From: Olivibacter sitiensis DSM 17696
Lineage (GTDB): Bacteria > Bacteroidota > Bacteroidia > Sphingobacteriales > Sphingobacteriaceae
Assembly: GCF_000427965.1 (NCBI RefSeq)
Contig: NZ_ATZA01000006.1
Span: 10,360-74,359, forward strand
Direction: 5' to 3'
Length of the DNA: 64,000 nucleotides
The position numbers and the translations under genes are program-made. The notes under the pieces are model-generated. The model was given only the letters and a program-made list of their open reading frames with translations, did no database searches and was not told the origin of the DNA. This document shows, piece by piece, positions 37,883-38,573 of the stretch. Position 1 is the first letter of the stretch, and each line of letters begins with the position of its first letter.

Positions 37883-37999
37883 TTAGCAAGCTAGCTCGTT
37901 GTGCGATCTGAGCCTTTCTGGGAGGTTGGAGGTGAAGCCGATATATATCTTGTCGTGTTTCTCGGAGTACAGGACGTATACGGTAAATGTCTTGTCCAT
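37883..37999 (-). pseudogene. Second truncated GIY-YIG fragment (38 residues), part of the 185-bp direct repeat
   Basis: Identical in DNA to the 5' part of the intact gene at 38182-38448 up to residue 36 (SHNEL), then ends after two extra residues at a TAA. It is the left copy of the 185-bp direct repeat, so it arose by duplication. The break point falls almost exactly where the other fragment at 36356 also diverges. Confidence 0.85.
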
Positions 38000-38077
38000 G
38001 GTGAAATCAGGTTGAAAAAAGAAAGGCCAGCGGAAACCCACCGGCCTTTAGTAGCGGGGACACGACTCGAACGTGTG
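37893..38077. repeat. 185-bp direct repeat, copy A
   Basis: Matches 38342-38526 with a constant offset of 449 bases and one difference (C at 38042 against T at 38491). Contains the 5' part of the GIY-YIG gene, the tRNA terminator and the last 26 bases of the tRNA-fMet gene. The single difference breaks a base pair of the terminator stem in this copy. Confidence 0.95.
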
Positions 38078-38130
38078 TCCGCCTTTGGCGGATATGGGCC
38101 CGACGAGCTGCCAGAGTTCCACTTGCACTG
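38052..38130 (-). pseudogene. Degenerate tRNA-fMet copy
   Basis: On the minus strand the last 26 bases are identical to the tRNA-fMet 3' end (T-arm and acceptor half). Going towards the tRNA 5' end, similarity continues only in patches (the D-arm-like CAGCTCGTCGGGC is kept) with an inserted small palindrome TCCGCC/GGCGGA, and no complementary 5' acceptor strand exists. It cannot fold into a functional tRNA. Confidence 0.7.
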
Positions 38131-38181
38131 GATATTTCAAACCCAACCGACTCGAACGTGCGGCCCAGCGGGCGTACCGGT

Positions 38182-38448
38182 CTATCCGTTATCGTTCCGG
38201 TTGACGATGTCCCTTATGAACCGCCGTCCGGCCCCGGACTTGAGTTGTTTCTCCCTTTTCATGGCCTCCTGTTTTGTTCTGAAGATCTCCATGTGTACGA
38301 CCTCCCACGGCCTGAACCTGACTGTCCATCCCTTTTTTCCGAGCTCGTTGTGCGATCTGAGCCTTTCTGGGAGGTTGGAGGTGAAGCCGATATATATCTT
38401 GTCGTGTTTCTCGGAGTACAGGACGTATACGGTAAATGTCTTGTCCAT
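38182..38448 (-). CDS. Solo GIY-YIG nuclease-family protein
   Basis: 88-residue single-domain protein of the small UvrC-N-like GIY-YIG family. The motif is VYVLYSEKHDKIYIGFTSNLPERLRSHN: VYVLY and IYIGFT stand for the GIY and YIG strands, with a conserved Arg (ERLRSH) and later the Glu-containing KTKQEAMKREKQLKSG pattern. Start at ATG 38448; a longer frame to 38490 would run into the tRNA terminator. Lies directly behind the initiator tRNA gene on the same strand. Such solo proteins are common, often multi-copy, in Bacteroidota; their cellular role is not established. Two truncated relatives are present within 2 kb. Confidence 0.88.
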   Translation of the reverse strand: MDKTFTVYVLYSEKHDKIYIGFTSNLPERLRSHNELGKKGWTVRFRPWEVVHMEIFRTKQEAMKREKQLKSGAGRRFIRDIVNRNDNG

Positions 38449-38526
38449 GGTGAAATCAGGTTGAAAAAAGAAAGGCCAGCGGAAACCCACTGGCCTTTAG
38501 TAGCGGGGACACGACTCGAACGTGTG
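38342..38526. repeat. 185-bp direct repeat, copy B
   Basis: Right-hand copy of the repeat described at 37893. It overlaps the intact GIY-YIG gene, the intact terminator and the 3' third of the functional tRNA-fMet gene, so this appears to be the parental copy. Confidence 0.95.
38471..38498 (-). terminator. Intrinsic terminator of the tRNA-fMet gene
   Basis: On the minus strand: AAAGGCCAG ... CTGGCCTTT, a 9-bp perfect stem with a 10-base loop, followed by TCTTTTTTC. It begins three bases after the tRNA 3' end and lies before the GIY-YIG start codon. Confidence 0.85.
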
Positions 38527-38573
38527 ACCTTCGGGTTATGAGCCCGACGAGCTACCAACTGCTCCACCCCGCA
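38501..38573 (-). tRNA. Initiator tRNA-fMet (anticodon CAT)
   Basis: 73 bases without an encoded CCA. Cloverleaf is complete: acceptor pairs 2-7 with 66-71 (GCGGGG/CCCCGC), D-arm GAGC/GCTC, anticodon loop CTCATAA, T-arm ACACG-TTCGAGT-CGTGT. Two initiator hallmarks: position 1 (T) and 72 (T) do not pair, and the anticodon stem has three consecutive G-C pairs (GGG/CCC). Its sequence is close to the E. coli initiator tRNA. Confidence 0.95.

Follow-up and report, generated by a model that had tools for sequence, protein, structure and literature searches.

The window, by which we mean the whole 64,000-nucleotide stretch from Olivibacter sitiensis DSM 17696 analyzed here, contains a decayed array that reads, in order, tRNA, terminator, GIY-YIG gene, hairpin-bearing pseudo-tRNA, terminator, and truncated GIY-YIG gene, all on the minus strand. 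At the upstream end stands a functional initiator tRNA-Met(CAT) gene (38500..38573; ARAGORN, and Rfam RF00005 with 63.3 bits), the sole tRNA-Met(CAT) that these programs called in the window. It was typed as an initiator from its GGG/CCC anticodon stem, which we take to be the hallmark of that class. Its neighbor on the opposite side, a GTPase gene on the plus strand (38734..39621; Pfam) that is presumably era, is part of the flank and lies outside the unit; a tRNA-Met(CAT) adjoins an era-like gene in all 30 of the family loci that were fetched. Behind the tRNA follow a terminator-like hairpin (38471..38498; inverted repeat 38471-38482/38487-38498) and an intact gene of about 88 to 90 codons (38182..38454; Pfam PF01541, 64.2 bits), the predicted nuclease of the unit. 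Directly behind the stop codon of this gene lies an older, decayed pseudo-tRNA scrap (38140..38181) that has retained the T-arm CGTTCGAGTCG (copy at 38148-38165, 89% in the repeat search).

The pseudo-tRNA-fMet that comes next (38050..38130) was delimited by repeat search and by-eye comparison with a congener (G001), and neither ARAGORN nor Rfam called a tRNA at ∼38050-38130. It consists of remnants of the D-arm and anticodon loop, a hairpin, and finally the T-arm and acceptor 3′ end, which are identical to those of the functional tRNA. The hairpin, TCCGCCTTTGGCGGA (TCCGCC-AAA-GGCGGA; 38078..38092, pattern search), replaces the 3′ side of the anticodon stem and the variable loop of the dead tRNA, and near-identity begins at its edge. 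Farther on, the same terminator recurs in front of a second GIY-YIG copy of 40 amino acids (37883..38005; PF01541, 33.0 bits), whose frame is cut after ∼36 to 40 codons and whose identical stretch ends at 37893. A third remnant (36356..36500) comprises a ∼80% identical GIY-YIG 5′ part behind a decayed tRNA acceptor end that was identified by eye. Between the second and third units lies a gene for an AAA_14/DUF4143 ATPase (36642..37829, minus strand; Pfam), which, judging from units read elsewhere, is probably a later arrival outside the unit. The two truncated GIY-YIG copies (36356-36500 and 37883-38005) end within ∼4 codons of each other. A group I intron with a GIY-YIG endonuclease was considered and dismissed, as the window tRNA is uninterrupted and Rfam gave no intron match in the window.

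The first-pass annotation had described a 185-bp direct repeat with an offset of 449 bases and one mismatch, and this description was borne out. A repeat search of the window reported 188 nt at 37893-38080/38342-38529 with a spacing of 449; base by base, 37893-38077 and 38342-38526 agree over 185 bp with a single mismatch (38042 C/38491 T), and a second mismatch (38078/38527) marks the end of the repeat, exactly where the left copy becomes the hairpin. A 185-bp match with a single mismatch far exceeds what chance would give. The content had also been read correctly: the right copy comprises the 3′ part of tRNA-Met(CAT), the terminator, and the first ∼36 GIY-YIG codons, and the left copy is accompanied by a degraded tRNA (∼38050-38130) and a truncated GIY-YIG frame that stops at 37883. 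The annotation had overlooked the hairpin in the dead tRNA, the T-arm scrap at 38148-38165, and the third remnant. The interpretation offered, a tandem duplication in which one tRNA copy is dead, is sound as far as it goes; it is incomplete in that the duplication is no accident of this genome. The same annotation had named, as an outcome that would speak against it, a widespread dispersed repeat with no connection to the tRNA. Across the whole genome, the only matches to the unit's DNA are this locus itself and the remnant 1.5 kb from it, which rules out a dispersed repeat, and in relatives the unit is tied to tRNA genes. The assembly is a 110-contig draft, and an assembly artefact may affect this exact locus; comparable arrays lie inside contigs of 3.3 to 4.8 Mb (G226, G242, G189, and G244).

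Two further GIY-YIG genes are present in the window genome. One (contig C26; L005:1428-1850) adjoins a tRNA-Arg(CCT) gene with reverse polarity: a copy of the tRNA-Arg 5′ half with CCTGCCGGCAGGCAGG inserted stands in front of the GIY-YIG gene, which has its start codon inside this pseudo-tRNA and its stop codon inside the intact tRNA-Arg(CCT). The other (C18) has no tRNA nearby. Among five genomes of the genus, three gave no GIY-YIG match at E 1e-6, and a match was absent from G004. Comparison with sister genomes, which had been proposed as a check, revealed filled and empty versions of the same site. In G001, era is followed by tRNA-Met(CAT), a GIY-YIG gene, a tRNA 3′ half with TCCGCCAGCTGGCGGA, and the contig end, and another contig opens within an array of this kind and continues into the gene flanking the tRNA in G002 and G003; we infer that these two contigs join. 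In G002 and G003, read by eye, that gene lies directly behind a single tRNA-Met(CAT) and no units are present.

The nuclease family was characterized from 40 aligned rows, which share 18 invariant positions, including Y6, Y17, G19, R27, H31, and E64. The conserved Tyr, Tyr, Arg, His, and Glu, whose roles we assume to be catalytic, together with the domain match (PF01541, 64.2 bits) place the protein in the GIY-YIG superfamily. It is under purifying selection, with dN/dS values of 0.05 to 0.18 in six of eight pairs (dS was not computable in the other two). The predicted structure (pLDDT 92.2) has the fold of SLX1/UPF0213. By profile, the nearest solved structures are the UPF0213 proteins 1ywl (4.9e-8) and 1zg2 (2e-7), and SLX1 is matched through its homologue 7wme (6.6e-5) and through 6seh (7.3e-5); the fold search also retrieved 6seh, with TMq 0.65 to 0.68 and 41 to 42% identity over 68 to 72 columns. 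The match to I-TevI is far weaker (E 0.61 by profile and 0.69 by fold). An anti-phage defense gene was rejected on PADLOC matches that are weak and partial (best E 3.5e-5); one of 40 family members matches a homing-endonuclease model at 2.4e-4.

To describe the unit at CAT-type tRNAs, we kept 79 loci from the best 80 of 334, ranked by similarity to a query (a three-row alignment) that was led by the window protein; the share of CAT tRNAs among them is therefore enriched by design. Judged by their titles, they come mostly from Bacteroidota and Balneola-type bacteria; Cloacimonadota and Tenebribacter are represented by one record each. A same-strand tRNA gene lies within 600 bp upstream in 64 of the 79, namely, 63 Met(CAT) and 1 Asn. 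The initiator anticodon stem is present in 53 of the 63 CAT tRNAs and absent from 10 (elongator or Ile type). No tRNA was in range at the remaining 15 loci, 6 of which had <100 bp of upstream DNA. A GIY-YIG copy lies within 600 bp of a contig end in 26 of 79 loci, so such arrays probably break short-read assemblies.

Behind the gene, a TCC..GGA inverted repeat was found within 130 bp in 68 of 79 loci, a count that comes from an inverted-repeat search and hence favors such repeats. We therefore also give the outcome of a test anchored on flanking tRNA sequence only; the anchor was found in 51 of 79 loci, and the other 28 were unscored. A perfect 6-bp inverted repeat is present in 50 of the 51 anchored pseudo-tRNAs and broken in one, and by the same test it is absent from all 65 of 65 functional tRNA genes. 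The left arm is TCCGCC in 44, TCCGCT in 3, and TCCGTC in 3, and the right arm matches each time, giving the paired variants TCCGCT/AGCGGA (3) and TCCGTC/GACGGA (3). By kind, the 50 hairpin-bearing pseudo-tRNAs comprise 39 at initiator tRNAs, 5 at other CAT tRNAs, and 6 without a called tRNA. Extra palindromes are plugged into the T-loop of some CAT pseudo-tRNAs (L093, L096, L116, L123, and L124).

The displaced 3′ half closely follows the tRNA at its own locus, with a mean identity of 0.94 compared to 0.71 for tRNAs at other loci. The T-arm and acceptor of the pseudo-tRNA exactly equal those of its own functional tRNA in 31 of 46 loci; the own tRNA is the best or joint-best match for the 3′ half in 39, and another locus matches better in 7. 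Such equality to the host tRNA would also be produced by vertical descent with homogenization. Likeness extends less far into the DNA beyond: the 45 nt behind the tRNA and behind the pseudo-tRNA agree at 0.67 within a locus versus 0.56 between loci and reach at least 0.8 in 13 of 46. Because these flanks are only modestly alike, terminator homogenization is not general.

Units of a similar gene and a broken tRNA also stand beside many tRNA genes in other Bacteroidota, as a search suggested at the outset revealed, and this recurrence in many genomes led us to reject an isolated duplication. With a 40-row profile, 93 of the 198 genomes sampled gave a match at E 1e-12 and 105 gave none; among the matches listed, there are up to 13 GIY-YIG copies in one genome and tandem arrays of up to eight copies. 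From these matches we took 100 clusters, hand-picked as the first 100 by E-value among the matches listed, with no random draw. A same-strand tRNA lies within 600 bp of any copy in 84 of the 100 and none is in range in 16; 12 amino-acid types are represented (Met, Asn, Asp, Val, Ser, Cys, Gly, Leu, Ala, Arg, Pro, and Gln). When both strands were allowed, a tRNA lay within 600 bp of the best copy in 81 clusters, on the same strand in 81 of 81. The gene stands behind the tRNA in 66 of the 84 loci and in front of it in 18.

Partial copies of the neighboring tRNA occur in 76 of these 84 loci, and 8 gave no tRNA copy at E 0.01. As controls, tRNAs for other amino acids from other loci matched in 10 of 168 cases, and the locus's own tRNA reversed matched in 1 of 84. 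The copied part depends on gene order: a tRNA 3′ part lies behind the gene in 54 of the 66 loci with the tRNA first, and a 5′ part lies in front of the gene in 16 of the 18 with the opposite order; in 23 of the 66, 5′ parts are found in front as well. In 21 loci of other tRNA types, contiguous tRNA segments are separated by clean insertions (28 in all), most of which fall within the anticodon loop or the T-loop (GGTTC|GAATCC), at the edge of the D-loop, or in the variable arm. Their mean fold z score is -3.4 relative to mononucleotide shuffles (21 of 28 fall below -1.5), and several consist of paired mini-hairpins with GAA/TTC loops. Arrays in G189, G226, and G113 have periods of ∼323 to 365 bp and hold only the GIY-YIG frame, with no integrase gene inside the element. 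At the start of one eight-copy array (L173; G113:C34) stands a normal tRNA 3′ half without the corresponding 5′ half, which suggests the anticodon loop as the position of the unit's left end.

Protein lineage tracks the amino-acid type of the tRNA, not the host genome. We built a tree of 120 proteins, 100 of them labeled, from the best cluster copies of >150 bp, the window protein, L005, and every fourth of the 79 relatives; it rests on ∼82 columns, so single branches are weak. Mapped onto this tree, amino-acid type requires 22 changes, compared to 62.5 with shuffled labels (minimum of 55 in 1,000 shuffles), and without Met it requires 19, compared to 44.6 (minimum, 37). Gene order is likewise clustered (8 versus 16.8). 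When initiator and other CAT tRNAs are treated as separate types, the count is 27 versus 66.3; within the Met rows themselves, these two kinds show no separation (5 versus 4.8; n = 31), so target specificity is coarser than a single gene. Among the 52 rows whose genomes contribute multiple loci, type again needs fewer changes than expected (17 versus 33.7; minimum, 29), and the host-genome label on the same rows is unclustered (45 versus 43.4). Median tree distances do not separate same-genome pairs from same-type pairs (3.29 versus 3.15), as the change counts did.

Presence and absence at orthologous sites can be followed in two cases: G001 versus G002 and G003, described above, and G226 versus eight empty congener sites. 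In G226, five units stand between a non-initiator CAT tRNA and the flanking gene. DNA from this flank was matched in 17 of 61 genomes of its genus, and 14 loci were examined. A tRNA-Met(CAT) lies 79 to 524 bp from the flank in 8 of the 14 (two of these have an intervening reading frame), the other 6 show no upstream tRNA within the fetched DNA, and a GIY-YIG match is absent from the fetched DNA of all 14. Loss in these congeners is as possible as gain in G226. The units themselves are unevenly alike: over 310 positions, units 1 and 3 differ at none and units 1 and 2 at 36, in an ungapped comparison where a one-base indel may inflate the latter figure. Gene conversion or recent partial re-duplication, which had been suggested for the window, fits the near-identity beside decay seen there. 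The classic proof in fungal mitochondria involves donor and recipient alleles that differ in the 3′ part, where the inserted part is foreign and the displaced part matches close relatives. The terminators of the G226 units resemble each other and differ from the congeners' printed terminators, with a T-arm that is alike; the terminator difference would be no more than an indirect sign of such alleles in the tRNA 3′ half.

The unit that recurs in these genomes pairs an ∼85-codon GIY-YIG gene with an incomplete copy of the tRNA gene that it targets. Beside the initiator tRNA, the order is tRNA 3′ half plus terminator, GIY-YIG gene, and displaced, hairpin-bearing tRNA 3′ half. In prokaryotes, partial tRNA copies have been ascribed to integrase islands and CRISPR spacers, as far as the consulted part of the source describes them (PMC9897764). 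Judged from titles and abstract beginnings in an open-access library, we came across no apparent description of a linkage between GIY-YIG genes and tRNA genes. As the anatomy is that of mobile ORF elements, and integrase islands and CRISPR spacers misfit units of a few hundred base pairs, we propose that the repeat is probably a single unit of a minimal, selfish nuclease element with specificity for tRNA genes, with cleavage and transposition as its presumed activities.

In the mechanism envisaged, the SLX1-like nuclease would cut the tRNA gene that it targets, each arm of which is an inverted repeat, and repair from an element-bearing copy would insert the nuclease gene and one tRNA half. Insertion would thereby restore one functional tRNA, and the other half would remain as a pseudo-tRNA. 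Hairpins in the pseudo-tRNA arms would destroy the cut site and break the homology needed for looping-out; the hairpin may serve cut-site protection, may prevent looping-out, or may be a product of the enzyme itself. Repeated cutting and unequal exchange between units could then yield tandem arrays with alike tRNA 3′ halves. The window would represent an outcome with one intact unit and two decayed ones, and its 185-bp near-identity would be a part of unit 2 homogenized from the hairpin edge outwards. One observation counts against this reading: the functional tRNA of the same genome retains the putative target, and the model gives no account of self-protection.

A different role for the palindromes has to be weighed. 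Two palindrome patterns are commoner in gene-bearing genomes (medians of 13 versus 3 and 3 versus 1 across 198 genomes), and reversed-pattern controls showed no significant difference (p 0.19 and 0.43). The association with the gene has a Spearman coefficient of 0.58, uncorrected for genome size, and a within-family permutation p value of 0.0002, the floor of 5,000 shuffles. Within the 100 fetched loci lie 88 of the 2,429 palindromes of gene-bearing genomes, a lower bound because only part of the GIY-YIG loci was fetched. One sequence, TCCCGATAGCTATCGGGA, recurs in several genomes and lies on many contigs in G230; it is possibly a REP-like family. These data, and the clean insertions at tRNA loop positions, would suit a REP-like system. 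In it, the palindromes scattered through the genome would be what moves, the GIY-YIG protein would process them in the role that the HUH transposase has for REP sequences, and tRNA loops would be favored landing sites since they form hairpins. We regard such a system as unlikely. The evidence is a correlation that would also be expected from a common tolerance of such repeats, and the dispersed palindromes are mixed, some perhaps being terminators. In the window genome, moreover, window-type palindromes occur at eight exact places, one in this array and seven elsewhere, and no tRNA lies in the fetched DNA around those seven, so the palindrome alone is no marker of the element there.

The linkage might instead reflect a host function, in which a domesticated nuclease is co-transcribed with tRNA genes and maintains or repairs repeat-prone tRNA loci, leaving pseudo-tRNAs as by-products. 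The same-strand orientation in 81 of 81 clusters, the purifying selection on the gene, and the structure-selective nuclease fold would all be expected of such a protein. Yet several findings make this account improbable: 105 of the 198 sampled genomes lack a match at E 1e-12, as do three of five in the window's genus at E 1e-6. Where present, it reaches up to 13 copies per genome among the matches listed, copies are decayed, and the proteins show no clustering by host. A plain tandem duplication confined to this locus, with the GIY-YIG gene as an incidental passenger, would account for the repeat itself but is very improbable, given how many genomes contain similar units with a dead tRNA that bears a hairpin. 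The scar of an integrase-type island, where duplication of the attachment site leaves a partial tRNA and where a full and a partial copy around inserted DNA are usual (PMC9897764), is scarcely credible here, since units with periods of ∼323 to 365 bp (G189, G226, and G113) have no room for an integrase and pseudo-tRNA hairpins form no part of that scar in the section of the source consulted.

Taken jointly, the selfish-element reading and the palindrome data allow a broader, more tentative picture, to which we give somewhat less than even weight. Minimal parasites of tRNA genes would exist throughout the phylum as SLX1-like lineages, each specialized on one tRNA type, that spread by cutting and restoring their target and mark the displaced half with hairpins in the anticodon, T, and D arms; they would possibly also scatter palindromes, constituting a second, HUH-independent origin of REP-like sequences. 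If the selfish-element reading is true, tRNA genes, including that of the initiator, are targets of a widespread, unrecognized selfish nuclease in Bacteroidota, and a parasite can occupy an essential RNA gene by always rebuilding it. The family would then supply GIY-YIG enzymes that nature has already sorted by target; it would also explain many partial tRNA genes, as well as contig breaks beside tRNA genes, and the origin of REP-like palindromes in Bacteroidota would become testable.

Among known systems, UPF0213 and SLX1, the latter a branched-DNA nuclease, resemble the protein in sequence profile and fold; unlike them, it has 85 codons and no second domain, is linked to tRNA genes, and occurs in multiple copies, some decayed. 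I-TevI-type homing endonucleases share the GIY-YIG domain, and I-TevI is a selfish gene at a fixed target. The element described here has no intron and no long DNA-binding domain, and its match to I-TevI is weak; homing-element traits seen here are presence and absence at orthologous sites and lineage specificity for amino-acid type.

REP sequences with their HUH transposases, in the parts of the accounts drawn on here (PMC3733652 and PMC6006769), likewise combine dispersed short palindromes with a small nuclease gene in the same genomes. The present system differs in having a GIY-YIG instead of an HUH enzyme (the only family-matched gene in the window's unit is GIY-YIG) and in carrying palindromes inside pseudo-tRNA arms. 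Integrative elements at tRNA genes, to the extent that the same source covers them (PMC9897764), also leave a full and a partial tRNA copy around inserted DNA; in contrast, these units contain no integrase, span a few hundred base pairs, stand in tandem, and bear hairpins in the partial copy.

The closest parallel in anatomy is provided by the mobile ORF elements of fungal mitochondria, reported for atp6 of Allomyces macrogynus and for atp6, atp9, cox2, and nad3 of Glomus in the part of the source that we cite (PMC3630166). There, an endonuclease gene lies behind its target gene together with a copy of the target's 3′ part, and the native 3′ part is displaced; in Glomus atp9, the free-standing endonuclease is itself of the GIY-YIG type (PMC3630166). 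The bacterial units repeat this arrangement, with the gene behind the target and a duplicated 3′ part in 54 of 66 loci, and 18 loci have the opposite polarity. Relative to the fungal elements as described in that portion, they reside in bacterial chromosomes, target tRNA genes of 12 types, and encode an 85-codon SLX1-like protein, and they combine both insertion polarities with hairpins in the displaced copy and tandem arrays.
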